A DNA stretch of 64,000 nucleotides from Iamia majanohamensis (GTDB lineage Bacteria > Actinomycetota > Acidimicrobiia > Acidimicrobiales > Iamiaceae): positions 1,054,001-1,118,000 of the forward strand of contig NZ_CP116942.1 in assembly GCF_028532485.1 (NCBI RefSeq). Reading direction: 5' to 3'. A program made the position numbers and the translations under genes. A model generated the notes under the pieces. The model was not told where the DNA came from and searched no databases. It worked only from the letters and a program-made list of their open reading frames with translations. Of the stretch, positions 44,041 to 60,822 are shown one piece after another (within the stretch, counting starts at the first letter, position 1; every line of letters begins with the position of its first letter).

Positions 44041-44065
44041 CCGGGGCCGGGCGCCTCAGCCCCGG
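44041..44065. terminator. Hairpin between convergent genes
   Basis: CCGGGGC (44041-44047) pairs with GCCCCGG (44059-44065) around an 11-nt loop that contains the minus-strand stop of the BTAD gene. It begins 2 nt after the plus-strand stop. Confidence 0.45.
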
Positions 44066-46422
44066 AGCCGGGCCTCCGCCGCCGCCACCCCCGGCGAGGG
44101 GGGCAGGCCGAGCTCGCCCGACGCCCGCCGGGCCCGCTCCAGCAGGCTCCGGGCCGAGCTGCGCCGGCCGGCGTCGAGCAGGCGGTCGGCGGCGTCGACG
44201 CAGCGGTCCTCGTCGAGGGGGTCGAGGTCCACGGCCCGGTGCACCAGCGCCTCGGCGTCGTCGAGGCGGCCGGCGTCGAGCGCGACCCGGGCCCGCAGGT
44301 CGAGCAGGTCGAGCCGCAGCCGGCGCAGGGCCTCGCGGGGGGCTGCGGCCCAGGGTGCGTAGAGGTTGTCGAGGGCGAAGTCGCCCTCGTCCCACCGCAG
44401 GGCCCGCAGGGCGAGGCGGTCCGCCTCCTCCGGGTCCCGCCGCTCGGTGCCGAGGGCCCGCCGGCCCAGGCCCTGCAGCTCGAGGGCGTCGACGACCACG
44501 CCCGGCCCCAGGACGAGGACCGCGCCCTGGCGCACCAGGACCTCGGCGCCGAGCAGCGACCGGGCCCGCTTGAGCACGTTGCGCAGCCGGGCCCGGCCCA
44601 GGGTGGGGGCCACGTCGGGCCACAGCTGCTCGATGAGCTGGTCGGCGTGGACCCGGCCGCCCTCGGCGCTGACGATCTCGAGGGCCGCCGTCACCCGCCC
44701 CACCGGCAGCGGGGTGGCCGGGGCCCCGTCGACCTCCACGTCGAGTCGCCCCAGGAGGTGGATCCGGGTGGTGCCGCGCTCGGGGTGCTCGGGGGCGTCC
44801 CCGGTGGCCCGGGAGAGGAGGTCCGACGCCCGGTCCCGCCAGGCGGGCGCACCCAGGTTCTCGAACAGCTGGGCCGCGGAGCGGAGGTGGACCTCGGCGT
44901 CGCCCGGCCGCCCCTCGGCCACCAGCCGGCGACCCCACTCCAGGCGGACCCGGGCCAGCGGCCACGGCAGCGGCGGGTCGCTGACCCGCCGCAGCGCGTC
45001 GCCCAGGTCGGCGTCGACGTCGGTGCCCCGGCCGAGGCTCGACCCCACCCGGGCGGCCAGGCTGAGGCCCCGGTCGTGGCCGGCGCGCCGGGCCCGGCGC
45101 TCGAGGTCGTCGAGGAGGACGCCGGCCTCGTCCTCCCGGCCCACGGCGGCCAGCGACTCGACCAGGCACGCCTCCCACAGCGTGGGGGCGGGGTTCTGGT
45201 CCGGCGGGCCGCCGTCGGCCAGCGGGGCCACCGCGTCGAGGGCCTCCCGGGGCCGCCCCGCCAGCAGGTGCAGCTCGGCCAGGGCCGCGCGGGCCGTCAG
45301 CCGGGCCGGGTCGCCGGGGGCGGTGGCCTCGGCCAGGGCGAGGGCGGCGAGGGTCCTCGCCTCCTCGTCGCCCCGGCACGCGGCGACCAGGGCGGCGGTG
45401 GCGTGGGCGCCCGGCCGCCACCCCGTGGGCCCCGGGGGCGAGGCGGCCACCGCGTCGGCCGCGTCGCGCACCGCGGCGTCCCAGTCGCCCAGCCCGAAGT
45501 CGATGATGGCGCTGACGACCAGTGCCCCGGCCCGGGCCGCCGGGTGGGTGCCGTCGTCGGTGGCGGCCACGACCCGGTCGGCCACGGCCCGGGCGTCGTC
45601 GTAGTCCTCCACCCACACCAGGGCGAGGGCCACCACCACCAGCACGTCGAGGGCCTCGGGGTCGGCCGAGGGGGCCGCCACCAGCCCGCCGGGCGCGTGG
45701 AGGAGGGCGCTGCCCGCCGTCGCCTCCCCGGCCAGCACCAGGGCGCCGCCCCGCAGGGCCCGGAGGAGGGCCCCGTCCGGGCCCGGCTCGTCCTCGGCCC
45801 CGGCGGTGAGGGCCAGGGCCCGGGTGGCGTCTCCGGAGCGGACCGCGCCGACGGCCCGGGCCACCCGCTCCCGGTCGGCGGCCACCGGCCCCAGGTCGGT
45901 GACCGGCAGCGCCTCGGGCGCCTCCCGGCCGGCCGCCGCCCAGCCGAGGACCACCGTGGTGGCGGTCCCCGCGGCCCGCCGGCCCACGAAGGCGAGCGCC
46001 TCCCGGGTGGGCTCGTCGAGGAGGTCGGCCCGCTCGACCACGAGCGCGACCGGCCGCTCGCGCGCCGCGGCCCGCAGCAGGTCGCGTGCGGCCAGGCCGC
46101 AGGTGAGGGCATCGGGGGGCCCGCTCCCCGGGCCTCGGCCGAGGGCGGCGTCGAGGGCGGCTCGGCGCGCCGGCAGGAGGGCGGCGGCGTGGTCGAGCAG
46201 CGGCTCGAGGAGGTCGTGGAGCCCGGCGTGGGCCAGCCCCGACTCGGCCGCCACCCCGCGCCCCCGCACCACCGTGGCCCCCTGGGCGCCCAGGGCCGCG
46301 GCGAGGGCGGCGACCGCGTCGGCGGTCGCCGCCTCCGGGCCCCGGACCACGACGGCCCCGCCGGCGCCCCCGCCCGCTGCGGCCAGGGCGAGCCCGGGAC
46401 CGGTGGTGGGGTCGTCGGTCAT
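44056..46422 (-). CDS. BTAD-type transcriptional regulator with degenerate ATPase domain
   Basis: A 788-residue regulator with reversed order compared with AfsR. An ATPase-like N-terminus (about 20-170) and TPR-like alanine-rich repeats (about 190-545) precede a winged helix (about 552-645; IHLLGRLDVEVDG, QLIEQLWPDV, RARLRNVLKRARSLLG) and a bacterial transcriptional activation domain (about 650-775; PWAAAPREALRRLRLDLLDLRARVAL). The P-loop is gone (VRGPEAATADAV instead of GxxGxGKT) and the Walker B Asp is Glu (LVVERADLLDE), so ATP hydrolysis is unlikely. SARP/BTAD proteins activate secondary metabolism or stress genes. GGAGGT precedes the ATG; the minus-strand TACGCT (46474-46479) is the likely -10. 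The divergent small-protein operon is a likely target. Confidence 0.85.
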   Translation of the reverse strand: MTDDPTTGPGLALAAAGGGAGGAVVVRGPEAATADAVAALAAALGAQGATVVRGRGVAAESGLAHAGLHDLLEPLLDHAAALLPARRAALDAALGRGPGSGPPDALTCGLAARDLLRAAARERPVALVVERADLLDEPTREALAFVGRRAAGTATTVVLGWAAAGREAPEALPVTDLGPVAADRERVARAVGAVRSGDATRALALTAGAEDEPGPDGALLRALRGGALVLAGEATAGSALLHAPGGLVAAPSADPEALDVLVVVALALVWVEDYDDARAVADRVVAATDDGTHPAARAGALVVSAIIDFGLGDWDAAVRDAADAVAASPPGPTGWRPGAHATAALVAACRGDEEARTLAALALAEATAPGDPARLTARAALAELHLLAGRPREALDAVAPLADGGPPDQNPAPTLWEACLVESLAAVGREDEAGVLLDDLERRARRAGHDRGLSLAARVGSSLGRGTDVDADLGDALRRVSDPPLPWPLARVRLEWGRRLVAEGRPGDAEVHLRSAAQLFENLGAPAWRDRASDLLSRATGDAPEHPERGTTRIHLLGRLDVEVDGAPATPLPVGRVTAALEIVSAEGGRVHADQLIEQLWPDVAPTLGRARLRNVLKRARSLLGAEVLVRQGAVLVLGPGVVVDALELQGLGRRALGTERRDPEEADRLALRALRWDEGDFALDNLYAPWAAAPREALRRLRLDLLDLRARVALDAGRLDDAEALVHRAVDLDPLDEDRCVDAADRLLDAGRRSSARSLLERARRASGELGLPPSPGVAAAEARLRG

Positions 46423-46503
46423 GGCGGGCGGCACCTCCGTCGGGGGCGGACGAGGCCCCCGCGCCGGGCCGGCAGCGTACCCGGGCCCACCGGGTGGTGG
46501 CCG

Positions 46504-46523
46504 CGTGGCCCGTCCGGGCCACG
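46504..46523. promoter_or_regulatory. 20-bp palindrome in BTAD/small-protein divergent promoter
   Basis: CGTGGCCCG-TC-CGGGCCACG has perfect 9-bp arms. It lies about 25 bp upstream of the minus-strand TACGCT, near its -35, and 56 bp upstream of the plus-strand TACCGT (46579-46584), so it could control both directions. Confidence 0.5.
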
Positions 46524-46617
46524 ACCCGGATGGCTCCCGGCGACACGGCCCCGGCCCGCCGGCAGCCCGACCCGTCCGTACCGTCCCCGGGGGAGAGGGA
46601 ACCCGGGGAGGACGGCC

Positions 46618-46836
46618 GTGGTGGAGAGCTTCGTGGTGAGGGTGCGGGCCGGCCTGGCCGCCGGTGCGCTGGCGGGGGAGGTCGAGGTGGTGGCGACCGG
46701 CCGGCGCGCCGTGTTCCGCAGCGCCGAGGACCTGGTCGGCCTCCTCGTCGACCTCACCGCCGCCGGTGGGGCGCCGAGCCCGCCCGGCGGCGAGGGCCCC
46801 GCCGCCGGCGCCCCGGCGGGGGAGGTGGCGGGGTGA
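46618..46836 (+). CDS. Small conserved-type protein of unknown function
   Basis: A 72-residue protein: VVESFVVRVRAGLAAGALAGEVEVVATGRRAVFRSAEDLVGLLVDLTAAGG plus a Pro/Gly/Ala-rich tail. The pattern of a beta strand, a turn, G.vevv.TG...F.s.edL..lL is one I associate with small actinobacterial proteins found beside LuxR/BTAD-type regulators; function unknown. GGGGAGG lies 6-8 nt before the start, and a second GTG follows immediately as an alternative. It overlaps the next gene by GTGA. The -10 TACCGT is about 33 nt upstream. Confidence 0.6.
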   Translation: MVESFVVRVRAGLAAGALAGEVEVVATGRRAVFRSAEDLVGLLVDLTAAGGAPSPPGGEGPAAGAPAGEVAG

Positions 46837-47294
46837 CCGCCCGCCCGCCCCACGGACCACGGCGCCGGCGCCCGGTCCTGCTGGCGGCCCTGGCCCTGGT
46901 CCTGGTCCTGGCGTCGGCCTGCGGCGGCGGCCCGACGGACCGGGCGGCGGGGGCCCGCCCGGTCGCCACCGCAGCCCGCCGGGTCGTGCCGGGCACGACG
47001 CGTGGCGGCCCCGCCCGCTTCGCCCCCCTCGGTGACCGGCGCAGCCCTGCGGGTCCGCGAGCCACGCCGACGGCCGCCACCTCGCCGCCGGCCGACGTGG
47101 CGCGGGCCGGCGCCCTCGCGGGCGAGGGGCTGGCCCGGGCCGCGGTTGCCCGCGCCCCGTCCCGTGCCGCGTCGGGGACCGCCCGCCGGCCGGCGCCCCC
47201 GACCCGGCTCCCGGCCTCCGGGACCACGGCCGTCCGCCCGGCGTGGACGGGCCCCGGCACCCTCACCCCGGCCCACCCCGGGGGCAAGGGCTGA
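46833..47294 (+). CDS. Low-complexity lipoprotein
   Basis: A 153-residue protein with a clear lipoprotein signal (RPPHGPRRRRPVLLAALALV then LVLASAC) and a mature part dominated by Ala/Arg/Pro/Thr without a recognisable fold. The strong start context (GGAGG, GTGA overlap with the preceding gene) supports translation, but the mature sequence resembles random GC-rich coding, so it may be a degenerate or fast-evolving surface protein. Confidence 0.5.
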   Translation: MTARPPHGPRRRRPVLLAALALVLVLASACGGGPTDRAAGARPVATAARRVVPGTTRGGPARFAPLGDRRSPAGPRATPTAATSPPADVARAGALAGEGLARAAVARAPSRAASGTARRPAPPTRLPASGTTAVRPAWTGPGTLTPAHPGGKG

Positions 47295-48147: not shown

Positions 48148-48168
48148 GGGCCCCCTCAGGGGGCGCCC
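48148..48168. terminator. Hairpin over the convergent cydB stop
   Basis: GGG-CCCCC (48148-48155) pairs with GGGGG-cg-CCC (48159-48168), and the loop TCA is the minus-strand stop codon of cydB. It probably ends both convergent transcripts. Confidence 0.45.
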
Positions 48169-49160
48169 TCCTCGGGCAGCAGGCCCTTCTGGTCGAGCCG
48201 GTAGAGCAGGCCCAGGGCCGGGAAGATGAACACCACGGCCAGGCCGGTGGCCACCAGCACCGCACCGAGGGTGCCGTCGGGGGCGGCGGCCTCGGCCACG
48301 GTGAGGGACCCGGGGAGCATGTCGTCCCACTGGGCCACGCCCCACGCCACCACCACCGCCGCCACCGCCAGGGCGGCCAGCTCCCGCCCGCCCCGCTCGG
48401 ACCGGCGCACGAGGAGCACGAGCGAGCCCAGGCCGGCCAGGGCCGACAGCACCACGACGGGCAGGGCCCGGGAGGTGAGGCCGTCGAAGAGCCGGTCGGC
48501 GTCGGCGGCGAGGACGAACACCCCGACGCCGGCGACGACCCCGGCGACCACCGCGGTGGCGATGGCCCGGGTGCGGAAGTAGGCGACCATGGCGTCGTCG
48601 CCGAGGCGCCGAGAGTCCCGCACCAGGTAGACGGCGGCGAGGTAGGCGACGACGCACACGGCGAGCACCCCGCCGAGCACCGAGGTGGGGTTGATCCAGC
48701 TCGTCCACATGTCGCCGGCGCGGCCGTCGGGCACCCGCCCCGAGGCGATGCCGCCGGCGACGGCGCCCATGCAGTAGGGGACCAGCACCGACGAGGCCGC
48801 GAAGGCGGCGCCGAAGTTGCGCTTGTCGCGCGTGCGCAGCACCACCTTGCGGAAGGCGAAGCCCGACCCCCGCAGCACGATCCCGAAGGCGGCCAGGGCG
48901 AGGGGCACGAACAGGGTGAGGGTGATGGACTCGTAGGCCGCGGGGAAGCAGGTCCACAGCACGACGAAGACGTAGATGAGCCAGACGTGGTTGGCCTCCC
49001 ACACCGGGCCGATGGAGTGGTCGATCACCTCCCGGGGCCGCTCGCCGCGCCGGGCGCCGCCGGCCACCAGGTCCCAGAACCCGGCGCCGAAGTCGGCCCC
49101 GCCCAGCACCGCGTAGGCGGTGACGCCGACGAACAGCACGACCGCGGCGGCGGTGCTCAC
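48156..49160 (-). CDS. cydB: Cytochrome bd ubiquinol/menaquinol oxidase subunit II
   Basis: A 334-residue membrane subunit with about eight to nine helices. Family landmarks are VLGGADFGAGFWDL (about 16-30), IGPVWEANHVWLIYVFVVLWTCFPAAY (about 50-76) and FRKVVLRTRDKRNFGAAFAASS. CydB stabilises CydA and the haems in the quinol-oxidising, O2-reducing, membrane-bound oxidase with high oxygen affinity. GTG start overlapping the cydA stop by GTGA. No cydC/cydD assembly transporter follows, so these must lie elsewhere. Confidence 0.95.
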   Translation of the reverse strand: MSTAAAVVLFVGVTAYAVLGGADFGAGFWDLVAGGARRGERPREVIDHSIGPVWEANHVWLIYVFVVLWTCFPAAYESITLTLFVPLALAAFGIVLRGSGFAFRKVVLRTRDKRNFGAAFAASSVLVPYCMGAVAGGIASGRVPDGRAGDMWTSWINPTSVLGGVLAVCVVAYLAAVYLVRDSRRLGDDAMVAYFRTRAIATAVVAGVVAGVGVFVLAADADRLFDGLTSRALPVVVLSALAGLGSLVLLVRRSERGGRELAALAVAAVVVAWGVAQWDDMLPGSLTVAEAAAPDGTLGAVLVATGLAVVFIFPALGLLYRLDQKGLLPEEGAP

Positions 49161-50659
49161 GGTCCGGCCCCCCGGTCGTCGTCGACGTCGCCCGGCGGCC
49201 CGTCGGCCGCGCCGGGGTCGGCGCCGACACCCGCCGGTGCGGCTCCCGCCCCGGGGCCGTAGGGCACGTCGTCGGCGGTGGAGGCGTCCTCGTCGCCCGC
49301 CTCGGCCTGGGCCCGGAACCGCCGGCTCATGCCCCGCAGCACGAGCACGGTCGTCACCCCCAGCCCGACGTAGAGGACCGTCACGCCGATGAAGGTGACC
49401 CAGACCCCGGAGCTGGTGGTGGCGGCCTCGTCGACCCGCATGAAGTTGTAGACGATCCAGGGCTGGCGTCCGACCTCGCTCACGATCCAGCCCGCCTCCA
49501 TGGCGATGATCGACAGCACGCCGGCGCTGGAGGCGAGGCGCAGGAACAGGCGGCTCTGGGGCATGTCCCGCCGTCGCCACCAGGTGAGCCCGAACCACAG
49601 CGACAGCAGGAACAGCGCCGTGCCCAGCCCCACCATGACGTCCCACGACCAGTGGACGATGTTCACCTGGCGGGTGGTCGGGCGCTCGTCCTCGGGCACC
49701 GCCTCGAGGCCCTGGATCACCGTCCCGGTGCCGGTGCTCGGGTCGACGAGGATCGACGCCACGCCGGGGATGGGGATGCCCCCGGAGATGCTGCCGTCGT
49801 CCTCCAGGCGGCCGAAGAGGGTCTCGGGGACGTCGTCGCTCGTCTCCGGGACCATCTCGATGGCGGCGAACTTGGTGGGCTGGTTGTTCGCCACCCAGCG
49901 GGCGAGGGAGTCGCCCACCCCCATCTGGATGGGGGTGGCGATGGCGGCCACGGTGAAGGGGATCAGGAACCCGAGACGGTGGTAGCGGTCGCGCCGGCCC
50001 CGGAGCATCCCGACGGCGTAGACCGAGGCGACGAGGAAGCCGCCCACCACGTAGGCGGCCACCACCATGTGGGCGGCCATCAGCGGCATGGCGTCGTTGA
50101 AGATGACCGACCACGGGTCGACCTCGACCACCTCGCCGGCAGCGTCGAGGGTGAAGCCCGACGGCGAGTTCATCCAGGCGTTGGCCGAGATCACGGCCAC
50201 GCTGCCCATGATCCCGGTGACGACGATGGGGACGCCGGTCCAGAAGTGGGCCCACGGCGGCAGCCGCCGCCACCCGTAGATGTAGATGGAGACGAAGACC
50301 GCCTCGAGGAAGAAGAACAGCCCCTCGAACGCGAACGGGATCCCGAACACCTCCCCCCACCGGCCCATGAAGCGGGGCCAGAGGAGGCCGAACTCGAAGG
50401 ACAGGACGGTCCCGGTCACGGCCCCGACCGCGAAGGTGACGGCCATGTACTTCGACCAGCGCTGGGCGAGCAGCAGGGCGTCGCGGTCGTCGTGGCGGAT
50501 CGCCTTGTAGTTGGCGATCAGGATCATCAGGGCCCACGACACCCCGAGGGGCACGAGGATGATGTGGGCGGCGAGGGTGAACGCCATCTGGGCCCGGGCC
50601 CAGGGCAGCGGGTCGACGGCCGCCAGCACCGGCGCGACGGTGGCGAGGGTGCCGCTCAC
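49157..50659 (-). CDS. cydA: Cytochrome bd oxidase subunit I
   Basis: A 500-residue membrane protein of nine helices. RAQMAFTLAAHIILVPLGVSW gives the N-terminal haem His. FEFGLLWPRFM and FAFEGLFFFLEAVFVSIYIYGW carry the conserved acidic proton-path/haem d residues. MPLMAAHMVVAAYVVGGF has the haem b558 His, and GRQPWIVY is the diagnostic CydA motif. The segment between helices 6 and 7 is short, so it belongs to the short Q-loop type usual in actinobacteria. The C-terminal tail (about 450-500) is acidic, Pro/Gly-rich and probably disordered, an extension not needed for function. GTG start. Confidence 0.95.
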   Translation of the reverse strand: MSGTLATVAPVLAAVDPLPWARAQMAFTLAAHIILVPLGVSWALMILIANYKAIRHDDRDALLLAQRWSKYMAVTFAVGAVTGTVLSFEFGLLWPRFMGRWGEVFGIPFAFEGLFFFLEAVFVSIYIYGWRRLPPWAHFWTGVPIVVTGIMGSVAVISANAWMNSPSGFTLDAAGEVVEVDPWSVIFNDAMPLMAAHMVVAAYVVGGFLVASVYAVGMLRGRRDRYHRLGFLIPFTVAAIATPIQMGVGDSLARWVANNQPTKFAAIEMVPETSDDVPETLFGRLEDDGSISGGIPIPGVASILVDPSTGTGTVIQGLEAVPEDERPTTRQVNIVHWSWDVMVGLGTALFLLSLWFGLTWWRRRDMPQSRLFLRLASSAGVLSIIAMEAGWIVSEVGRQPWIVYNFMRVDEAATTSSGVWVTFIGVTVLYVGLGVTTVLVLRGMSRRFRAQAEAGDEDASTADDVPYGPGAGAAPAGVGADPGAADGPPGDVDDDRGAGP

Positions 50660-50941
50660 CGGGCGGGGCCCGGCCTCCGCCCGGCGCGGTCACCACCCCG
50701 GTGGTCGTCTCGCTCGGTGGTCGATGGCGGCATCGGCGCGTGCTCCTCCCGGTGGCGGCGGTCTACCAGATCGGCCGCGCACCACCCGTCCGGGTGGCGC
50801 TCGCGCCGCGGTGCGCCCGGCCGGAGGGTCACGAACCCGGCCTCCCTGCCGACCCTAGGATCAGCCGGGAGGGCGCGGAAGGGGTGGTCAGCCCGGTCCC
50901 GTCCCCGGGTCCGAGACGGATCGCCGACCGACCGGAGCGCC

Positions 50942-52633
50942 ATGTCCACCACCGAACCCCTCGCCGTCTCCGAGCGCGGCCGGAGCCTGCTGACGCGGCC
51001 GATCCTCAACAAGGGCACCGCCTTCACGGCCGACGAGCGCGACGCCTTCGACCTCCACGGCCTGCTCCCGACCCACGTCGAGACCCTGGAGCAGCGGGCC
51101 GACCGGGTGCGCATGCAGCTCGCCCTGGAGACCACCGACATCGGCCGCCACGTCCTCCTCCGCGAGGTCCAGGACGAGGACGAGACCCTCTACCTGCGCG
51201 TGCTGCTCGACGACATCGAGGACCTGCTGCCGATCGTCTACACGCCGGTGGTCGGGGAGGCGTGCCAGAAGTTCAGCCGCATCTACCGGGGCCACCCCCG
51301 GGGCCTGTTCCTGTCGTACCCGGACGCGGACCGCCTCGAGGACATGCTCCGCGCCGTGCCCCGCGCCCCCGACGAGGTGGCCGTCATCGTCGTCACCGAC
51401 GGCGAGCGCATCCTCGGCCTGGGCGACCAGGGGGCCGACGGCCTCGGCATCCCCATCGGCAAGCTCTCGCTCTACTCGGCCTGCGCCGGCATCGACCCGG
51501 CCGGCACGCTGCCCATCATCCTCGACGTGGGCACCGACAACGAGGAGCGGCGCAGCGACCCGACGTACCTGGGGTGGCGCCACGAGCGGGTCGACGGCGA
51601 CGACTACGACGCCTTCGTCGACCGCTTCGTCCAGGCGGTGAAGACCGTGTTCCCCGACGTGCTGCTCCAGTGGGAGGACTTCGCCGAGCGCCACGCCCAC
51701 AAGCTGCTCGCCCGCTACCGCGACCAGCTGTGCACCTTCAACGACGACATCCAGGGCACGGCCACGGTCGTCACCGCCTCGGTGCTCTCGGCCATGCGGC
51801 GCTCGAGCCGGGACCTCCGCGACCAGCGCGTGGTGCTGGTCGGGGCCGGCTCGGCCGGCTCCGGCATCGCCGAGCAGCTGGTGCAGGCCATGGTCGCCGA
51901 GGGCCTCGCCGAGGACGAGGCCCGGTCGCGCTTCTACATGGTCGACCGCCCCGGCCTCCTGACCTCGGACATGGACGGCCTCGAGCCCTTCCAGGTGCCC
52001 CTGGCCCAGGACCCCGCCGCAGTGGCCGACTGGCAGCGCGCCGACCCGTCGGAGACCACCCTCCTCGACGTCATCGCCAACGCCTCGCCGTCGGTGCTGA
52101 TCGGCGTCACCGGCGTGCCCGGGCTGTTCACCGAGGAGGTCGTGCGGGGCATGGCCGCGGCCGACGAGGCCCCGGTGATCTTCCCGCTGTCGAACCCGAC
52201 GTCGCGCGCCGAGGCCACCGCGGCCGACGTGCTCGCCTGGTCCGACGGGCGGGCCCTGGTCGCCACCGGCAGCCCCTTCGACCCGGTGACGATCGACGGC
52301 GTGACCCACACCATCGCCCAGAGCAACAACTCCTACATCTTCCCCGGGGTGGGCCTGGGCGTGCGGGCGGCACGCGCCCGCCGGGTGTCCGACGGCATGT
52401 TCATGGCCGCGGCCCGGGCCCTGGCCGACGCCGTCCCCGCCCACCACACCGGCGACAGCCTGCTGCCCGCCCTGGCCGACGTGCGGGAGGTCAGCCGGTC
52501 CATCGCGGTGGCGGTGGCCGCCCAGGCCCAGGCCGAGGGCCTGGCCCCGGAGACCACCACGGAGGAGCTGGAGGCGGCCGTCGACGCCACCACCTGGGAG
52601 GCGCAGTACCGCCCCTACGTCCCCGGCGACTGA
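50942..52633 (+). CDS. NAD-dependent malic enzyme
   Basis: A 563-residue oxidative malate decarboxylase of the large (eukaryotic/MaeA-like) class: LLPIVYTPVVGEACQKFS (about 95-112), VVTDGERILGLGDQGADGLGIPIGKLSLY (about 152-180), TFNDDIQGTATV (metal ligands) and the NAD Rossmann motif VLVGAGSAGSGIAEQ. It converts malate to pyruvate and CO2 with NAD(H) in the cytosol. NAD versus NADP preference is inferred from the class. It leads the run of genes ending with the pyruvate oxidase, whose substrate it makes. A TAGGAT box (50856-50861) lies about 80 nt upstream. Confidence 0.92.
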   Translation: MSTTEPLAVSERGRSLLTRPILNKGTAFTADERDAFDLHGLLPTHVETLEQRADRVRMQLALETTDIGRHVLLREVQDEDETLYLRVLLDDIEDLLPIVYTPVVGEACQKFSRIYRGHPRGLFLSYPDADRLEDMLRAVPRAPDEVAVIVVTDGERILGLGDQGADGLGIPIGKLSLYSACAGIDPAGTLPIILDVGTDNEERRSDPTYLGWRHERVDGDDYDAFVDRFVQAVKTVFPDVLLQWEDFAERHAHKLLARYRDQLCTFNDDIQGTATVVTASVLSAMRRSSRDLRDQRVVLVGAGSAGSGIAEQLVQAMVAEGLAEDEARSRFYMVDRPGLLTSDMDGLEPFQVPLAQDPAAVADWQRADPSETTLLDVIANASPSVLIGVTGVPGLFTEEVVRGMAAADEAPVIFPLSNPTSRAEATAADVLAWSDGRALVATGSPFDPVTIDGVTHTIAQSNNSYIFPGVGLGVRAARARRVSDGMFMAAARALADAVPAHHTGDSLLPALADVREVSRSIAVAVAAQAQAEGLAPETTTEELEAAVDATTWEAQYRPYVPGD

Positions 52634-52703
52634 ACATCGCGCCCTCGCCGGCCGATGGATGCGGTCGGCACCGACATCCGCACCCGACCCCCGGAGCCCC
52701 GCC

Positions 52704-53945
52704 ATGATCGACACCAGCACCTACACGCCGAAGGGGGACAAGAGGAACTCCGAGTTCTTCGTGGAGTACCTCCCCAAGGTCTACGAGCGCCGGGCGGCGT
52801 CCGGGCTCGACCAGGTCGTCGGGCGCATGGCCGGGGTCCTCGTCCAGGTCGAGCACGGCGACGCGGTGGCCTACCTGGCCGAGCTGGCCGCCATGGGCCC
52901 GTACCGGCTCGTCGACTCCCGGCTCACCGAGACCCACCGGGTCTTCCTGCTGCAGTCCCAGCCCGACTTCCCCCGCCTGGTGGTGACCGAGCCGCTGAGC
53001 CCGTCCTACGAGGACGAGGTCACCCGCTGGAACGAGCTCTACCCGCTCTCCCGGGCCAAGCCCAACGCCCGCTACATCGGGGAGATCTACCGGGCCGACT
53101 CGGTGGCCGCGGTGCGCGAGGCGCTCGAGCCCCAGAACATCCGCTTCGTCTACGAGGGCGACCAGGCCAACGACCTCTACTGCCGCGAGCACCTGACCTT
53201 CACGTTCCTCTCGGACTTCACCTACAACCGGGTCGGCTACGTCGACGTCGACCTCGACGACCTCGACGACCTGGGCCTGGGGGAGCGGTTCACGCTCTCC
53301 TCCGAGGAGCAGGGGAAGATCGACGCCGCCGCCGCCCTCCAGGCCGAGCACGGCGTGGCCGGGCTGGTGCTGGGCCTCGACCACATGGCCACCCGCATCC
53401 TCGCCGGGGAGCGGGAGGACGCCATCCTCGAGTACCTGACCATGGTCCCCTACTACTTCTGGGGGGCCTACAACATCAGCGAGATGAACTCGTCGACGAA
53501 CGTCACCCGCCACCCCGACGTGCCCGACGACAAGATGTCGCCGGCCCGGGTGTTCACCGCCAACAACACGCCGTCGTTCGTGAACTCCTTCGAGGACCTC
53601 CCCATGCCCACCGAGGACTTCGTCCGCAACTTCGGTCGGCGCATGCACCACATGGCCTACGCCGTCACCGACGGCCACGTCGTCGACGAGAAGAACGTCG
53701 ACTTCGTGGTGCGCCAGCTGGGCGAGATGGGCACGCCCTTCCTGGCCAAGGTCGTGGGCGAGTGCAAGGACGAGCCCAACCTCAAGCAGATCTTCTCCAA
53801 GGCCTCGCCCTACTCCGTGCTCATCACCGAGTACATCGAGCGCTGCCACGGCTACGAGGGCTTCTTCACCCGGGACAACGTCGCCGCCCTCACCGCCGCC
53901 GCCGGCGAGGACGAGCGCTACGACCACGGCCATGTCTTCGACTGA
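52704..53945 (+). CDS. HPPD-like VOC-superfamily dioxygenase
   Basis: A 413-residue protein that resembles 4-hydroxyphenylpyruvate dioxygenase in its C-terminal half. LGLDHMATRI (H227), RRMHHMAYAV (H315/H316) and ITEYIERCHGYEGFFTRDNVAAL (E376) occupy the places of the 2-His-1-Glu iron ligands. The ending GFFTRDNVAALTAA parallels the HPPD GN(F)xALFxA helix. The N-terminal half is another VOC repeat without ligands. It differs much from ordinary HPPD (for example SEMNSSTNVTRHPDV), and no tyrosine-degradation gene is nearby, so the substrate may be another 2-oxo acid. The ATG at 52704 has GGAG 8 nt upstream. The 3' end overlaps the NDH-2 start by 14 nt, so the two are co-expressed. Confidence 0.75.
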   Translation: MIDTSTYTPKGDKRNSEFFVEYLPKVYERRAASGLDQVVGRMAGVLVQVEHGDAVAYLAELAAMGPYRLVDSRLTETHRVFLLQSQPDFPRLVVTEPLSPSYEDEVTRWNELYPLSRAKPNARYIGEIYRADSVAAVREALEPQNIRFVYEGDQANDLYCREHLTFTFLSDFTYNRVGYVDVDLDDLDDLGLGERFTLSSEEQGKIDAAAALQAEHGVAGLVLGLDHMATRILAGEREDAILEYLTMVPYYFWGAYNISEMNSSTNVTRHPDVPDDKMSPARVFTANNTPSFVNSFEDLPMPTEDFVRNFGRRMHHMAYAVTDGHVVDEKNVDFVVRQLGEMGTPFLAKVVGECKDEPNLKQIFSKASPYSVLITEYIERCHGYEGFFTRDNVAALTAAAGEDERYDHGHVFD

Positions 53946-55284
53946 CGCGCCGACCACCGAGCGGGTGGTGATCGTCGGCGGCGGCTTCGCCGGGGTGGCC
54001 TGCGCCCAGGGCCTGGCCGAGCACGGGGTCGAGGTGACCCTGATCGACCGGAACACCTACCACCAGTTCCAGCCCCTGCTGTACCAGGTGGCCACCGCGC
54101 AGCTGGCGCCCAGCGACATCATGCGGCCCCTGCGCGGCCTGTTCCGCAAGCACCCCTCGGTGGCCGTGAAGGAGGCCGAGGTCACCGCGGTCGACCCCGT
54201 CGCCCGGACGGTGCGCACCGCCGAGGGCGAGACCTTCACCGGCGACGTCCTCGTGCTGGCCACCGGGGCCCGGGCCGCCTTCTTCGGCGTGGCGGGCGCC
54301 GAGGAGCACGCCTTCCCCCTCTACACGGCGCGCGACGCCGAGCGGCTCCGCAACCGGGTGCTGCAGCTGTTCGAGGACGCCGACCTCGAGCCCGCCCGCC
54401 TCGACCGGGGGGCGCTCACCTTCGTCGTCGTCGGCGGTGGGCCCACCGGGGTCGAGACCGCCGGCGCCCTGGCCGACCTGGTGAACGACGTCATGCCCGA
54501 GCGCTACCACGACCTCGACGTGCACCGCGCCCGCATCGTGCTCGTCGACGGCGGCGACACCGTGCTGCGGCCCTTCTCGTCCAAGGCCCACGACTACGCG
54601 GCCGAGGTGCTGGCCCACAAGGGGGTCCGCCTGGAGCTGGGCGCCTCGGTCGAGGAGGTGACCCCGGAGAAGGTGGTGCTGGGCGACGGCTCGGAGATCG
54701 CCACCCGCTGCGTGGTCTGGGCCGGCGGACTGTCGGTGCCCCCGCTCGACGGCACCGACGACATCGCCCGCGGGCGCGGCGGGCGCATCGGCGCGGGACA
54801 GGACCTCTCGGTGCCGGGCTTCCCCGGCGTCTACGCCATCGGCGACGTGGCCGGGGTGGAGGGCCCCGACGGGCGCCCCTACCCCCAGCTCGGCTCGGTG
54901 GCCATGCAGGCCGGGCGGGCCGCGGCCACCAGCATCCTCGCCACCCGCGCCGGTGTGGCCGCCCCCGCCTTCCGGTACCACGACAAGGGCATCATGGCCA
55001 TGATCGGCAAGGGCGCGGCCGTGGCCGAGATCGGCGCCCACCACCACGAGCTGCACGGCACCATCGCCTACAGCGCCTGGCTCGGCGTGCACGCCTGGCT
55101 GATGAACACCACCCGGGCCCGCGTCGACGCCTTCATCTCCTGGGCCTGGGACTCGTTCTCCCGCAGCCGAAGCCCGGCGATCATCGACGCGCCCGACCAG
55201 CCCCGCATCGACTGGGGCGACGAGGACCAGACCGACGACGCGGCCGCGGCGGACGACGCCCGGCCCGAGGGAGCACAGCCATGA
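53932..55284 (+). CDS. ndh: Type II NADH:quinone dehydrogenase (NDH-2)
   Basis: A 450-residue monotopic flavoprotein. The FAD Rossmann motif is VIVGGGFAGVACAQGLAEHG (about 13-32). HQFQPLLYQVATAQLAPSDI is diagnostic for the NDH-2 quinone/FAD region, the NADH-binding Rossmann motif is VVVGGGPTGVETAGALADL, and YAIGDVAG with PYPQLGSVAMQAGRAAA follows. The C-terminal amphipathic region (HAWLMNTTRARVDAFISWAWDSFSRSR) should bind the membrane. It oxidises NADH and passes electrons to menaquinone without proton pumping. Joined to the genes on both sides by overlaps (14 nt and ATGA). Confidence 0.9.
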   Translation: MSSTDAPTTERVVIVGGGFAGVACAQGLAEHGVEVTLIDRNTYHQFQPLLYQVATAQLAPSDIMRPLRGLFRKHPSVAVKEAEVTAVDPVARTVRTAEGETFTGDVLVLATGARAAFFGVAGAEEHAFPLYTARDAERLRNRVLQLFEDADLEPARLDRGALTFVVVGGGPTGVETAGALADLVNDVMPERYHDLDVHRARIVLVDGGDTVLRPFSSKAHDYAAEVLAHKGVRLELGASVEEVTPEKVVLGDGSEIATRCVVWAGGLSVPPLDGTDDIARGRGGRIGAGQDLSVPGFPGVYAIGDVAGVEGPDGRPYPQLGSVAMQAGRAAATSILATRAGVAAPAFRYHDKGIMAMIGKGAAVAEIGAHHHELHGTIAYSAWLGVHAWLMNTTRARVDAFISWAWDSFSRSRSPAIIDAPDQPRIDWGDEDQTDDAAAADDARPEGAQP

Positions 55285-56897
55285 TCGAGAACGCCCGCAC
55301 CAAGGTCTTCTGGGGCATGCTCGTCCTGGCCGTCCTCGTCCTGCCCTTGGCCCTGGTCAGCCCGTGGTTCCTGCTGCTCGAGGTCGTGCTCGTGCCGCTC
55401 GTGCTCCTCGGCGTCTGGGACCTGGCCCAGACCCGCCACAGCATCCTGCGCAACTACCCGATCGTGGGCCACCTGCGCTTCGTGTTCGAGGACATGGGCC
55501 CCGAGCTCCACCAGTACCTGGTGGAGAACGACACCGACGGCCGCCCCTTCGACCGCGACACCCGCAGCCTCATGTACGAGCGGGCCAAGGGCGTGCCCGA
55601 CCAGAAGCCGTTCGGCACCGAGCTCGACGTCTACGGGACCGGCTACACGTGGATGACCCACTCGGTCGCCCCCCACCCGATGATCGACGAGCCCGAGCGC
55701 AACATGCGGATCACCGTGGGCGGCCCGCACTGCGCCCAGCCCTACTCCAGCTCGGTGCTCAACATCTCGGCCATGAGCTTCGGCGCCCTCGGCCACGCGG
55801 CCGTGCGGGCCATGAACCTCGGCGCCAAGAAGGGCGGCTTCGCCCACGACACCGGCGAGGGCGGCCTGTCGAAGTACCACCGCGAGAACGGCGGCGACCT
55901 CATCTGGCAGGTCGGCACCGGCTACTTCGGCTGCCGCACGCCCGACGGCGACTTCTCGCCGGAGCTGTTCCAGGAGACGGCCGCCCTGGAGCAGGTGAAG
56001 ATGATCGAGATCAAGGTGTCCCAGGGCGCCAAGCCCGGGCACGGCGGCATCCTGCCCGGTGCCAAGGTCACCGAGGAGATCGCCGAGGCCCGCCTCGTCC
56101 CCGCCGGCCAGGACGTGCTCTCGCCCACCTACCACAAGGCCTTCTCCACCCCCCGGGAGATGATGTCGTTCATCACCCAGCTCCGGGAGCTCTCCGGGGG
56201 CAAGCCGGTGGGCTTCAAGATCTGCATCGGCTACCCGATCGAGATCGCCTCCATCGTCAAGGCCATGGTCGAGACCGGGGTGGTGCCCGACTTCATCGTC
56301 GTCGACGGCGGCGAGGGCGGCACCGGTGCGGCCCCGCTGGAGTTCTCCGACGCCCTCGGCGCCCCGCTCATCGAGGGCCTGATGATCGTGCAGAACGTCA
56401 TGGTGGGCGCCGGCCTCCGGGACCAGGTCAAGATCGGCGCCAGCGGCAAGCTGGTGTCGGCCTCGGCCATGGCCCGGGCCATGGCCCTCGGCGCGGACTG
56501 GTGCAACTCGGCCCGCGGCTTCATGTTCGCGGTGGGCTGCATCCAGTCCCAGCGCTGCCACACCAACCGGTGCCCGGTCGGGGTCACCACCCAGAACGAG
56601 AAGCTCCAGCGGGCCCTGGTGGTGCCGGACAAGGCCGAGCGGGTCCACGGCTTCCACCGCCACACCGTCCACGCCCTGGCCGAGATGGTCGCGGCCATGG
56701 GCCTCGACCACACCGCCGAGCTGCGCCCCGACCACGTGCTCCAGCGGGTCAGCACCACCGAGGTGAGGTCCTTCACCGAGATCCACCAGCCCTTCACCCC
56801 GGGCCAGCTCCTCGACGGCACCGCCCCGGCCCGCTTCCAGGACATCTGGGACCGCGCCTCGGCCGACGACTTCCGGCCGTCGGTCGGTGCCGCCTGA
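55281..56897 (+). CDS. Membrane-anchored FMN-binding glutamate-synthase-family protein
   Basis: A 538-residue protein with two N-terminal membrane helices (VFWGMLVLAVLVLPLALV, FLLLEVVLVPLVLLGVW; about 9-46). The FMN TIM barrel of the glutamate synthase central domain (about 145-470) follows: ISAMSFGALGHAAVRAMNLGA, TGEGGLSKYH, KVSQGAKPGHGGILPGAKVT, DGGEGGTGAAPLEFSDALG. The [3Fe-4S] cysteines are in CIQSQRCHTNRCPVG. It has no amidotransferase or GXGXG domain, so it is not a glutamate synthase. The family is of unknown substrate; position between NDH-2 and pyruvate oxidase suggests membrane redox chemistry. The ATG overlaps the NDH-2 stop by ATGA. Confidence 0.88.
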   Translation: MIENARTKVFWGMLVLAVLVLPLALVSPWFLLLEVVLVPLVLLGVWDLAQTRHSILRNYPIVGHLRFVFEDMGPELHQYLVENDTDGRPFDRDTRSLMYERAKGVPDQKPFGTELDVYGTGYTWMTHSVAPHPMIDEPERNMRITVGGPHCAQPYSSSVLNISAMSFGALGHAAVRAMNLGAKKGGFAHDTGEGGLSKYHRENGGDLIWQVGTGYFGCRTPDGDFSPELFQETAALEQVKMIEIKVSQGAKPGHGGILPGAKVTEEIAEARLVPAGQDVLSPTYHKAFSTPREMMSFITQLRELSGGKPVGFKICIGYPIEIASIVKAMVETGVVPDFIVVDGGEGGTGAAPLEFSDALGAPLIEGLMIVQNVMVGAGLRDQVKIGASGKLVSASAMARAMALGADWCNSARGFMFAVGCIQSQRCHTNRCPVGVTTQNEKLQRALVVPDKAERVHGFHRHTVHALAEMVAAMGLDHTAELRPDHVLQRVSTTEVRSFTEIHQPFTPGQLLDGTAPARFQDIWDRASADDFRPSVGAA

Positions 56898-56942
56898 GCC
56901 GGCCGCCACCACCCACCACCACCACCACCCCGAGGACATGAG

Positions 56943-58682
56943 ATGAGCCAGACAGTCGCAGAGGTCCTCGTGGACCAGATGGTCGAGGCCGGGATCCGGT
57001 CCGTGTACGGGATCGTCGGCGACTCGGCCAACCCCATCGTTGACGCCCTCCGTCGCCACGAGGCCGGCATCCGCTTCGTCCACGTGCGCAACGAGGAGGC
57101 CGGCGCCTTCGCGGCCGGCGCCGACGCCCAGATCTCGGGACGGCCCACGGCCGTGCTCGGGTCCTCGGGCCCGGGCAGCGTCCACCTCCTGAACGGCCTC
57201 TACGACTGCCAGCGCAACGGCGCCTCGGTGTTCGCCATCGCCACCCACATCCCCAGCACCGAGATCGGCACCGGGTACTTCCAGGAGACCGACCCCACCG
57301 GGATCTTCCGCGGCTGCACCCACTTCTGCGAGACCATCTCCTCGCCGGCCCAGCTGCCCCGCCTCTCCGAGCTGGCCCTGCAGTCCGCCGTCCTCGACCG
57401 CGGCGTCGGCATGGTCATCCTGCCCGGCGACATCGCCGCCATGGAGGTGCCCGAGGGCGAGCGCGACCCGGTGCACACCCACCGGCCCGCCCTCCGCCCG
57501 GCGGAGGAGTCCCTCGAGGAGGCCGCGGCCGTGATCAACGCGGCCGAGCGGGTGGTCATCTTCGGCGGCGAGGGCACCCGTCACGCCCGCGACCAGGTGC
57601 TGGCCCTCTCCGAGCGGCTGAAGGCCCCGGTCGGCTACGCCTACCGCGGCAAGGACGTGCTCGAGGCCGACAACCCCTCGGCCGTCGGCATGACCGGCCT
57701 GCTGGGGTGGGGCGGCGCCGCCGGGGCCCTGGCCAGCTGCGACTGCCTCCTGCTGCTGGGCACGGACTTCCCCTACCGGCCGTTCCTGCCCTCGGCCCCC
57801 AAGATCATCCAGGTCGACGACAGCACCCGGCGCCTCGGCCGGCGGGCCGCGGTCGACATCGGACTCCTGGGCGACACCGCGGTGACCCTCCGGGCCCTGC
57901 TGCCCAAGCTGACCGAGCGCACCGACCGCAGCTACCTCGACAAGGTCCTCGAGCACCACCGCAAGGAGGTCGAACACCTCGCCACCTACGTCCACCACGA
58001 GGGCAGCGGCGAGGGCCTGCGCCCGGAGATGGTCGCCTCGACCATCAGCGAGCTGGCCGACGACGACGCCGTGTTCACCGTCGACACCGGCATGTGCAAC
58101 GTGTGGGGCGCCCGCTACGTGCACATGCGCCCGGGCCAGCGCATGCTCGCCTCGTTCCGCCACGGGTCGATGGCCAACGCCATGCCCCAGGCCATCGGGG
58201 CCAAGGTCGGCGCCCCCGACCGCCAGGTGATCGCCCTGTGCGGCGACGGCGGCTTCACCATGCTGATGGGCGAGCTGCTCACCGCCGCCGGCCTCGACAT
58301 CCCCGTCAAGCTCATGGTCTTCAACAACTCGACCCTCGGCATGGTCCGGGCCGAGATGATGGTGAGCGGCTACCAGCCGTGGGGCACCGACGTCACCAAC
58401 CCCGACTTCGGGGCCCTGGCCAACGCCGTCGGCGTGCACGGCGAGCGGGTGGAGCCCGGCGGCGACGTGCGCGGGGCCATCACCCGGGCCCTCGCCCACC
58501 CGGGCCCCGCGCTGGTCGACCTCGTCACCGACCCCCGGGCCCTGTCGATGCCCCCGCACACGACCCTTGAGCAGGTCAAGGGCTTCGCCCTCACCACCAG
58601 CAAGCTCGTGTTCGGCGGCGAGGCGGCCGAGGTCTGGGAGCAGGCCAAGTCCAACATCCGCGACATCGGACAGGTCATCTAG
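56943..58682 (+). CDS. poxB: ThDP-dependent pyruvate dehydrogenase (quinone)/pyruvate oxidase-like
   Basis: A 579-residue three-domain ThDP enzyme. The Pyr domain contributes the activating glutamate in FVHVRNEEAGAFAAGADAQISG (about 37-58). The FAD/central domain covers about 190-330, and the PP domain has the ThDP motif ALCGDGGFTMLMGELLTA...VFNNSTLGM. The C-terminus (about 540-579, LEQVKGFALTTSKLVFGGEAAEVWEQAKSNI) resembles the membrane-targeting tail of PoxB. It oxidises pyruvate to acetate and CO2 and reduces quinone at the membrane. A related acetolactate synthase function is less likely because the residues typical of ALS are absent. GAGGAC is close to the ATG. Last gene of the run, 45 bp after the glutamate-synthase-like gene. 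Confidence 0.85.
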   Translation: MSQTVAEVLVDQMVEAGIRSVYGIVGDSANPIVDALRRHEAGIRFVHVRNEEAGAFAAGADAQISGRPTAVLGSSGPGSVHLLNGLYDCQRNGASVFAIATHIPSTEIGTGYFQETDPTGIFRGCTHFCETISSPAQLPRLSELALQSAVLDRGVGMVILPGDIAAMEVPEGERDPVHTHRPALRPAEESLEEAAAVINAAERVVIFGGEGTRHARDQVLALSERLKAPVGYAYRGKDVLEADNPSAVGMTGLLGWGGAAGALASCDCLLLLGTDFPYRPFLPSAPKIIQVDDSTRRLGRRAAVDIGLLGDTAVTLRALLPKLTERTDRSYLDKVLEHHRKEVEHLATYVHHEGSGEGLRPEMVASTISELADDDAVFTVDTGMCNVWGARYVHMRPGQRMLASFRHGSMANAMPQAIGAKVGAPDRQVIALCGDGGFTMLMGELLTAAGLDIPVKLMVFNNSTLGMVRAEMMVSGYQPWGTDVTNPDFGALANAVGVHGERVEPGGDVRGAITRALAHPGPALVDLVTDPRALSMPPHTTLEQVKGFALTTSKLVFGGEAAEVWEQAKSNIRDIGQVI

Positions 58683-58936
58683 AGGGTTTCGCCGTCACTC
58701 GCTCGCTGCGCTCGCTCCGTTCCGACGAGCTGAGCGCCCTCGCTGCGCTCGGACCCAGGTCGCCGACCAGCAAGCTGGATCGGCTCCCTCCCCCTGGGGG
58801 CTCCGCCCCCAGACCCCCAGCGGCAGAGCCGGCCGTCACGTCGCGGTGTGACCCGGGCGCGTCGGTCGGACGACGGGTTGTGCCAGGCACACTCCGTCGG
58901 GTGGGACGGCGGGGACGTGGCGGTACGTTCGGCCGG
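58683..58936. repeat. Repeat- and hairpin-rich intergenic region
   Basis: This gap follows the pyruvate oxidase stop. CTCGCTGCGCTCG occurs twice (58702-58714 and 58739-58751), itself near-palindromic. Further on CTGGGGG-ctccg-CCCCCAG (58794-58812) forms a hairpin followed by accccc. Such GC sequence is often repeated around actinobacterial genomes. The right end carries the ABC gene promoter; no gene is visible. Confidence 0.55.
58924..58929 (+). promoter_or_regulatory. -10 box TACGTT, leaderless start
   Basis: TACGTT plus 7 nt precedes the GTG of the ABC ATPase gene. Confidence 0.5.
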
Positions 58937-59965
58937 GTGCCTGCTGTCGACCCGCGCCGTGACGGCCAGGGACCGGACCTCGCCATCGAGGTGCGGGACC
59001 TGGCCAAGCACTACGGCGCCACCCACGCCCTCGACGGGGTCGACCTGGAGGTCCCCCAGGGCGGCGTGGTCGGGCTCCTCGGCCCCAACGGGGCGGGGAA
59101 GACGACCCTCGTGCGGGTCCTCACCACCCTGCTCCAGCCCACCTCGGGCACGGCCCGGGTGTTCGGCCTCGACGTCACCCGGGAGGCCACCGCCATCCGG
59201 GAGGTGATCTCGCTCACGGGCCAGTACGCCGCGGTCGACGAGCTGCTCACCGGGCGGGAGAACCTGCTCATGTTCGCCGAGCTGCTCCAGCTCACCCCCC
59301 GCTCCGCCCGGCGCCGGGCCGACGAGCTGCTGGAGCGCTTCGACCTCACCGACGCGGCCGAGCGCCGGGCCAGCACCTACTCCGGGGGCATGCGGCGGCG
59401 CCTCGACCTGGCCTCCAGCGTCATCGTCCCGCCCCGGCTGCTGTTCCTCGACGAGCCCACCACCGGCCTCGACCCCCGCACCCGCAACCAGATGTGGGAC
59501 GTCATCCGGGAGCTGGTCGAGGCCGACACGACCATCCTGCTCACCACCCAGTACCTGGAGGAGGCCGACCAGCTGGCCGACCGCATCGTGGTCATCGACC
59601 ACGGCCGGATCATCGCCGACGGCACCGGCGACGAGCTCAAGGACGCGGCGGGGGGCATCACCGTCGAGGTCCTGCTCGGGCCCGGGGCCGACATCGACGA
59701 GGCCTGCGGCCACCTGGAGGCGGCCGGGCTCGACGCCCGGCCGGTCCGCGGCGCCCAGGTCGACCTGGAGGTGCCCACCGACGCCGGGGGCGGGCTGGCC
59801 ACCGTCCGCCAGGTGGCGGCGGCCCTGGAGGAGGCCGGCTGCCCGGTGCGCGACCTGGGCCTGCGCCGGGCCTCGCTCGACGAGGTGTTCCTCCAGCTGA
59901 CCGGCGCGCCCGCCGACGCCCTGCCGACCGACGACGCGGCCCCGGCCGAGGAGGTGCACCCGTGA
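58937..59965 (+). CDS. ABC transporter ATP-binding protein, DrrA-like
   Basis: A 342-residue cytosolic ABC ATPase. Walker A is GPNGAGKT (49-56), the signature is YSGGMRRRLDLA and Walker B is LLFLDEPTTGLDPR. The switch loop TTQYLEEAD has Gln in place of the usual His, which is characteristic of the DrrA/antibiotic exporter group. The C-terminal 100 residues are the DUF4162-type extension. It pairs with the downstream permease (GTGA overlap) to export a hydrophobic compound, such as a drug or a lipid. The GTG is chosen from the TACGTT box 7 nt upstream and because longer frames add only low-complexity sequence. Confidence 0.9.
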   Translation: MPAVDPRRDGQGPDLAIEVRDLAKHYGATHALDGVDLEVPQGGVVGLLGPNGAGKTTLVRVLTTLLQPTSGTARVFGLDVTREATAIREVISLTGQYAAVDELLTGRENLLMFAELLQLTPRSARRRADELLERFDLTDAAERRASTYSGGMRRRLDLASSVIVPPRLLFLDEPTTGLDPRTRNQMWDVIRELVEADTTILLTTQYLEEADQLADRIVVIDHGRIIADGTGDELKDAAGGITVEVLLGPGADIDEACGHLEAAGLDARPVRGAQVDLEVPTDAGGGLATVRQVAAALEEAGCPVRDLGLRRASLDEVFLQLTGAPADALPTDDAAPAEEVHP

Positions 59966-60822
59966 CCGCCACCGCCGAGCCCCGCGGCACCGCCGACGGC
60001 GCCACCCTCGCCTCGGACCACCTGGTCGAGCGGCGCTCCCGGCGGCCGGGCCTGAAGGCCCTCCGCGACGGGTGGACCATCGGCAAGCGCAACCTGCGCC
60101 ACTTCACCCGCCTGCCCCGCCTGCTGGTGTTCTCCACCATCCAGCCGGTGATGTTCGTGCTGCTGTTCGGGACCGTGTTCGACGGTGCCGTGCGGGGCGC
60201 GCTGCCCAACGGCTTCCCCGACTACCTGGCCTTCGTGATGCCCGGCATCTTCATCCAGTCGACGATCTTCCGGATGACCCAGACCGCCGTCGGGTTGGCC
60301 GAGGACCTGGAGAAGGGCGTCATCGACCGCTTCCGCTCGCTGCCCATGGCCCGCTCCGGCGTGCTCATCGGGCGCACGATCGCCGACCTGGTGCGCTCGA
60401 TGGCCGTCATCCTGCTCATGGTCGCGGTGGGCATGGCGGTGGGCTTCCGCTTCGGCAACGGCCCCCTCGCCGCCGTGGCCGCGGTGGCCATCGTCGGGGT
60501 CTTCGGCTACGCCCTGTCCTGGGCCTTCGTGAACATCGCCATGGTCGCCGGGGGCACCGAGTCGGCCCAGTCGGCGTCGTTCGTCCTCGCCTTCCCCCTG
60601 TCGTTCGTCTCCAGCGTGTTCGTGCCGACCGAGAGCTACTCCATCGGCTGGCTGGCGGCCATCGCCCGCAACTCGCCGGTGACCGCAGCGGCCGACGCGG
60701 CCCGGGGCCTGGCCGTGGCCGGCCCCGTCGCCGGCCCCGTGGTGAAGACGCTCATCTGGGCTGCGGTGCTGCTGGCCGTGTTCGTCCCCCTGAGCGTGGC
60801 CCGCTTCCGCCGCCTCGAGTAG
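59962..60822 (+). CDS. ABC-2 type permease, DrrB-like
   Basis: A 286-residue membrane permease with six helices. LLVFSTIQPVMFVLLFGTVFDGAV (helix 1), YLAFVMPGIFIQSTIF (helix 2), the coupling segment LAEDLEKGVIDRFRSLPMARSGVLIGRTIADLVRS and FVSSVFVPTESYSIGWLAAIARNSPVTAAADAAR are typical of the DrrB family. It forms a homodimeric channel with the upstream ATPase. GAGGAGG stands just before the GTG. Its stop is followed by the 62-bp tandem repeat. Confidence 0.9.
   Translation: MTATAEPRGTADGATLASDHLVERRSRRPGLKALRDGWTIGKRNLRHFTRLPRLLVFSTIQPVMFVLLFGTVFDGAVRGALPNGFPDYLAFVMPGIFIQSTIFRMTQTAVGLAEDLEKGVIDRFRSLPMARSGVLIGRTIADLVRSMAVILLMVAVGMAVGFRFGNGPLAAVAAVAIVGVFGYALSWAFVNIAMVAGGTESAQSASFVLAFPLSFVSSVFVPTESYSIGWLAAIARNSPVTAAADAARGLAVAGPVAGPVVKTLIWAAVLLAVFVPLSVARFRRLE

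Follow-up and report, generated by a model that had tools for sequence, protein, structure and literature searches.

The locus described here occupies positions 48156-58682 of a 64,000-nucleotide stretch of the Iamia majanohamensis genome, referred to below as the window (G000:C1:1054001-1118000; the genome is a single contig of 4.58 Mb and about 75% GC). Five genes run in series on the forward strand. The first encodes an NAD(P)-malic enzyme of the eukaryote/MaeA type (50942-52633). The second, which is the main subject here, belongs to an unannotated family, and its product is a predicted Fe(II) oxygenase with the fold of 4-hydroxyphenylpyruvate dioxygenase (HPPD) and hydroxymandelate synthase (HMS); it is called HPPD-like below (52704-53945). 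It is followed by genes for a type II NADH dehydrogenase (NDH-2, NADH to quinone; 53932-55284), a membrane-anchored FMN/3Fe-4S protein with a glutamate synthase domain (GltS; 55281-56897) and a PoxB-like pyruvate:quinone oxidoreductase (pyruvate to acetate and CO2; 56943-58682). The successive junctions are +70, -14, -4 and +45 nt, the negative values being overlaps of 14 nt between HPPD-like and NDH-2 and of 4 nt between NDH-2 and GltS. The HPPD-like start was set at 52704, replacing an upstream ATG at 52659, because the homologues begin there in the alignment. The genes for cytochrome bd oxidase, cydA (subunit I, 49157-50659) and cydB (subunit II, 48156-49160, with a GTG start at 49160), lie on the reverse strand. 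They diverge from the malic enzyme gene across 282 bp (50660-50941) that, from its position, presumably carries promoters. No sigma-70 promoters were detected in or around the block, this divergent region included, and no Rfam RNAs; the lone terminator-like match is no more than expected by chance, and the inverted repeats of the divergent region resemble ordinary high-GC noise. Based on its layout, the run from malic enzyme to PoxB looks like one operon. The gene content, the shared direction with its two overlaps and the divergent cydAB had been described correctly in a first-pass annotation, and all seven genes lie at the coordinates given there and fall in the families named, by Pfam, NCBIfam and PDB matches and, for HPPD-like, by predicted fold.

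The malic enzyme scores 794 bits against PRK13529 in NCBIfam (cut-off 326), contains both malic domains (PF00390 and PF03949), matches PDB 6ags at 6.9e-182 and has all of its motifs intact (YTP, RGLF, GKLSLY, EDF, FNDD, SNPT and NNSYIFPG). NDH-2 (PF07992) shows the fold with two dinucleotide-binding domains, and its best PDB match is the NADH:ubiquinone reductase 9mqy (4.5e-62 over residues 7-419). GltS (538 aa; PF01645, 3.1e-86) consists of the FMN domain only. The N-terminal glutamine amidotransferase domain is absent in the Pfam scan, with a hydrophobic N-terminus in its place, and the 3Fe-4S cysteine motif GCIQSQRCHTNRCPVG aligns with that of glutamate synthase 2vdc. The protein is predicted to interconvert glutamate and 2-oxoglutarate. 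The PoxB-like protein has three thiamine pyrophosphate (TPP) domains. It matches 9ev4, labelled as a thiamine-pyrophosphate pyruvate dehydrogenase-type enzyme, at 3.6e-169 (residues 1-575), followed by the Escherichia coli pyruvate dehydrogenase [cytochrome] 3ey9 at 1.2e-165 (residues 1-571), with the C-terminal membrane-binding tail covered, and scores under the NCBIfam equivalog cut-off (756 versus 893 bits). CydB and CydA match PF02322 (2.9e-63) and PF01654 (1.5e-124). On these matches malic enzyme, NDH-2, PoxB-like and CydAB are assigned to families whose reactions are established. At the thresholds used, matches for malic enzyme, PoxB and bd oxidase were found in 3, 6 and 7 of 41 relatives, and this scarcity would fit a block that was acquired or is specialised. 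A second CydA, 30% identical, lies at G000:C1:3985740-3987185, so the bd oxidase of the window is not the sole copy in the genome.

The HPPD-like product is 413 residues long. It matches no family in Pfam or NCBIfam, TIGR01263 (4-hydroxyphenylpyruvate dioxygenase) included, no PDB entry by single-sequence or profile search, and no plasmid record. Over 33 members of the family the only widely recurrent domain trace is a sub-threshold VOC/glyoxalase match, and none of the 33 matches PF07063 (DUF1338/HglS). Plain sequence comparison gave nothing, and it was fold prediction that resolved the family. The best Foldseek match of the structural model (mean pLDDT 68, pTM 0.76) is HMS (2r5v, 1.4e-8), with HPPDs next and nearly the whole chain covered. 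VIA-align gives Z scores of 16.1 for HPPD and 15.1 for HMS over 268-296 residues. HglS is not among the fold matches listed, which show HPPD and HMS; this excludes nothing. The sequence contains the HPPD-type motifs GLDHMA, HHMA and QIFS...ITEYIER, and the predicted metal ligands H227, H316 and E376 (His-His-Glu) do not vary in any of the 81 sequences. The assignment of these ligands relies on motifs and invariance, since the model has little confidence in that region. Fold and motifs predict an Fe(II) two-substrate alpha-keto-acid oxygenase of the HPPD/HMS fold, and the protein would be a new family within the known mechanistic class of HPPD, HMS and HglS.

The 81 sequences, and the 81 loci considered below, consist of the HPPD-like gene of the window and 80 homologues, 48-80% identical, found in a genome scan. 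Their hosts are Actinomycetota, Cyanobacteria (Cyanobium and Synechococcus), Ruegeria, Roseibium, Sneathiella, Rhizobiaceae, Chromatiales, Legionellaceae and a Crenothrix metagenome-assembled genome (MAG). The family occurs in 3 of 395 genomes of the window's own class and in 1 of 41 near relatives, and its spread is therefore patchy. A separate canonical HPPD is present in 10 of 21 carriers, this genome among them (a TIGR01263 match above cut-off at C1:3059180-3060244, away from the block). Because the canonical enzyme is separate here and in nine other carriers, the HPPD-like protein is not simply the organism's HPPD. Two further HPPD-like genes, in Ruegeria (G050:C8:14106-15068) and Roseibium (G052:C5:81476-82438), score about 200 bits against TIGR01263, below threshold, and fall outside the family studied.

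To compare gene neighbourhoods, the 81 loci, with fetched flanks of up to 8 kb, were searched by tblastn with the genes of the window. In 16 loci malic enzyme lies directly upstream of HPPD-like on the same strand, at a distance of 12-74 bp. Two are from Actinomycetota (the window and L003), three are gammaproteobacterial (L037, L054 and L055), and the others are alphaproteobacterial or unclassified proteobacterial (L035, L039, L046, L049, L051, L053, L068, L071, L072, L073 and L080). In Sneathiella (L041) malic enzyme is found 1.5 kb upstream, again on the same strand. In five Actinomycetota (L002, L005, L006, L007 and L008) it is divergent from a GltS-HPPD-like pair and belongs to another subfamily, 43-47% identical to the malic enzyme of the window; a quick tree with long branches, in which exact placing is unsure, groups the IMCC26207-type divergent enzyme with that other subfamily, at about 46% identity to the window's enzyme. 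In four alphaproteobacterial genomes (G053-G056) malic enzyme of the window type is found at the HPPD-like locus only, the other matches being weak (~30% identity). GltS is the most frequent neighbour after malic enzyme; the FMN-only form is adjacent in loci of Actinomycetota and of the Chromatiales and Sneathiella types, where the genes are arranged in several ways.

The first-pass annotation was to count as refuted if relatives showed no conservation of the gene order. The comparison favours it for malic enzyme, HPPD-like, NDH-2 and GltS, which recur in that order in the Ilumatobacteraceae contig L003, where the gap is 57 bp and NDH-2 overlaps as in the window. PoxB is absent from the fetched HPPD-like flanks elsewhere, the one exception being a TPP enzyme in L051 with 24% identity. 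Because the four-gene order recurs in L003, and the malic enzyme-HPPD-like pair in Alpha- and Gammaproteobacteria, the block is more than a chance arrangement. NDH-2 and cydAB also occur near HPPD-like in other Acidimicrobiia (L005 and L008) as non-orthologous copies, which supports a respiratory connection in that group. The conserved core is thus malic enzyme and HPPD-like, with GltS as a frequent third member, and PoxB and the window's cydAB lie outside it. In the family tree the malic enzyme-adjacent members fall in widely separated parts; the link is either old and rearranged many times or has arisen more than once, and either history points to a shared function. Other neighbours bear on the substrate. 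In Ruegeria the glutamate-making 5-oxoprolinase genes pxpB-pxpC-pxpA are immediately upstream of HPPD-like on the same strand, and amino-acid permeases are found near the locus in L003 and L068.

Self-hydroxylating keto-acid oxygenases convert R-CH2-CO-COOH to R-CH(OH)-COOH and CO2. 2-Oxoglutarate is the suggested substrate because it fits both malic enzyme on one side and, on the other, the enzymes that form or use glutamate. From this we infer the reaction 2-oxoglutarate + O2 -> malate + CO2, for which the adjacency of malic enzyme counts as evidence of the product because the predicted malate is the substrate of the neighbour. The position four residues past the first metal histidine (His+4) was therefore compared with HglS, in which the metal ligand His70 is followed by Arg74, and Arg74 forms a salt bridge with the distal carboxylate of 2-oxoadipate (PMC7286885). 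In the HPPD-like family this position, four residues past H227, is Arg231 in 81 of 81 sequences. In canonical HPPDs it is Asn in all 20 readable sequences. The analogy supports R231 as the residue that binds a distal carboxylate, and hence a dicarboxylic keto acid as substrate.

The likeness to HglS extends to the Fe(II) VOC fold, the His-His-Glu ligands and the self-decarboxylating, self-hydroxylating reaction. However, the two families show no detectable sequence relation, and HglS uses 2-oxoadipate only, whereas the HPPD-like gene is linked to malic enzyme and its product has a predicted substrate with one carbon fewer. The shared arginine would equally suit an oxygenase of the same mechanism acting on another dicarboxylic keto acid, either 2-oxoadipate (giving 2-hydroxyglutarate) or oxaloacetate (giving tartronate). 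This genome has no DUF1338/HglS protein (PF07063), so that an HglS activity would not be redundant. Neither product is a malic enzyme substrate, however, and no lysine-degradation genes were recognised beside HPPD-like in the loci examined, which leaves such a substrate unlikely. The arginine also bears on whether the protein is a divergent HPPD or HMS of aromatic amino-acid metabolism. HMS and HPPD are its closest fold matches, with the same metal-ligand motifs and a similar length and order of elements, and the Cyanobium and IMCC26207-type carriers are without canonical HPPD. Against this stand the 10-19% identity, the replacement of Asn by Arg, the carriers with a separate HPPD and the different gene neighbourhood, in which no homogentisate-pathway genes were recognised and the linkage is to malic enzyme and glutamate genes. 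An aromatic role therefore seems quite improbable. Very improbable, in our estimate, is an oxygenase placed downstream of malic enzyme and acting on pyruvate (pyruvate + O2 -> glycolate + CO2, in a chain from malate through pyruvate to glycolate). Malic enzyme does come first in the gene order, and an HMS-type reaction on pyruvate would be expected to yield glycolate. However, pyruvate offers the invariant arginine no second carboxylate, the linkage to GltS and 5-oxoprolinase would be unexplained, and the enzyme would compete with PoxB in this genome.

Taken with 2-oxoglutarate as the substrate, the locus may encode a route from glutamate to acetate that is dissipative and depends on oxygen, to which we assign a probability of about 0.55. 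GltS, or another enzyme acting on glutamate, would supply 2-oxoglutarate. The HPPD-like enzyme, for which the fold and metal site are the support, would then, in the manner of HMS and HglS, split CO2 from its own keto acid and hydroxylate that same chain to give malate. Oxoglutarate dehydrogenase would thereby be bypassed, and with it succinyl-CoA, succinate and fumarate. Malic enzyme, judged by its family, would convert malate to pyruvate, CO2 and NAD(P)H. In this genome PoxB would convert pyruvate to acetate and NDH-2 would oxidise NADH, both reducing quinone, and cytochrome bd would reoxidise the quinol pool with O2. The oxygenase and malic enzyme steps would form the conserved core of the route, and NDH-2, cyd and PoxB would be local additions.

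The first-pass annotation had begun the pathway at malate and treated the block as a low-oxygen or overflow respiratory module. Its flow from malate to acetate, with electrons passing to quinone and then O2, is allowed by the enzyme families, and a quinone-linked block is a reasonable description; it misses, however, the conserved core that HPPD-like and GltS form with malic enzyme, and the gene context suggests a start at glutamate or 2-oxoglutarate. A block of overflow or low-oxygen malate-to-acetate respiration in which HPPD-like and GltS are incidental has in its favour the confirmed families of NDH-2, PoxB, malic enzyme and bd oxidase, and the presence of NDH-2 and cydAB close to the locus in both L005 and L008. 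However, the two genes set aside as poorly known are, together with malic enzyme, the part conserved across phyla. A purely low-oxygen role is also doubtful because the predicted oxygenase consumes O2. This account of the block is accordingly rather unlikely. Because the oxygenase would spend O2 without conserving energy, we read the block as one of overflow or dissipation, not as a low-oxygen module.

Several observations weigh against the proposed route from glutamate. The profile of the HPPD-like protein, compared with 21 HPPDs by hhalign, gave no significant match, and much of the surroundings of the metal site is modelled with low confidence. Arg231 was placed by its spacing and not by coordinates, and since 2-oxoglutarate is not an HglS substrate, the arginine points to a second carboxylate and not to a chain length. 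The direction of the GltS-like reaction is inferred, as are the substrate of the oxygenase and the co-regulation of the block. Cyanobium, Roseibium and most Ruegeria have no adjacent malic enzyme. Lastly, 14 of the 21 carriers, this genome included, possess oxoglutarate dehydrogenase E1, so that a bypass would be non-essential there. A general role of the family as stand-in for a missing oxoglutarate dehydrogenase was rejected on the same count. All six cyanobacterial carriers and the Chromatiales MAG lack E1, and in them such a role is possible.

2-Oxoglutarate is a meeting point of carbon and nitrogen metabolism, and the exits that the tricarboxylic acid (TCA) cycle has from it are considered well known. 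That the family is an unrecognised, widespread O2-dependent one making malate from 2-oxoglutarate, and with malic enzyme pyruvate, in a shortcut past four TCA-cycle enzymes, is a claim on which we would lay even odds. If true, it would add a new exit from 2-oxoglutarate, irreversible, free of CoA and conserving no energy, and a fourth type of two-substrate alpha-keto-acid oxygenase. It could also answer how 2-oxoglutarate is used in some cyanobacteria that lack oxoglutarate dehydrogenase. A literature search found no report of an enzyme that makes malate from 2-oxoglutarate, although most subscription papers were outside its coverage and the evidence of novelty is therefore weak. The cyanobacterial shunt through 2-oxoglutarate decarboxylase and succinic semialdehyde dehydrogenase and the gamma-aminobutyrate shunt lead round oxoglutarate dehydrogenase and end at succinate without O2. 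The proposed route would likewise avoid that enzyme, but would reach malate in a single O2-dependent step. In E. coli, PoxB, NDH-2 and cytochrome bd provide quinone-linked, weakly coupled electron transfer from scattered genes, whereas in the window the same enzyme families are encoded within or next to a single putative operon that also contains malic enzyme and the oxygenase. The quinone-respiration block would then become a coherent pathway of amino-acid overflow. With this reaction a highly conserved protein family, so far without a function in Pfam and NCBIfam, gains one that can be tested. The route could also be used in engineering as a shortcut from glutamate to pyruvate.

A few minor features of these loci were also observed. 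The MAG contigs L006 and L007 bear an apparently mistaken label, Bifidobacterium breve; the gene order of their loci is nearly identical to that of Actinobacteria bacterium IMCC26207 (L008). In many Ruegeria assemblies (L017, L019, L022, L024 and others) the contig ends at almost the same point, ~3 kb upstream of HPPD-like and just before pxpB, which suggests an adjoining long repeat such as an rRNA operon. In the window, a DrrA/DrrB-like (daunorubicin-type) ABC exporter pair (58880-60822) begins 197 bp past PoxB on the same strand and could be read through from the same operon. On the other side of the block, an open reading frame on the reverse strand (44056-46860) resembles a BTAD/AAA-type regulator, possibly SARP/LAL-like, with ~82% GC and a very weak codon-position signal. 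A large LuxR-type regulator of the LAL family, containing AAA_16 and MalT-like TPR domains, is encoded on the forward strand at 307-3045.

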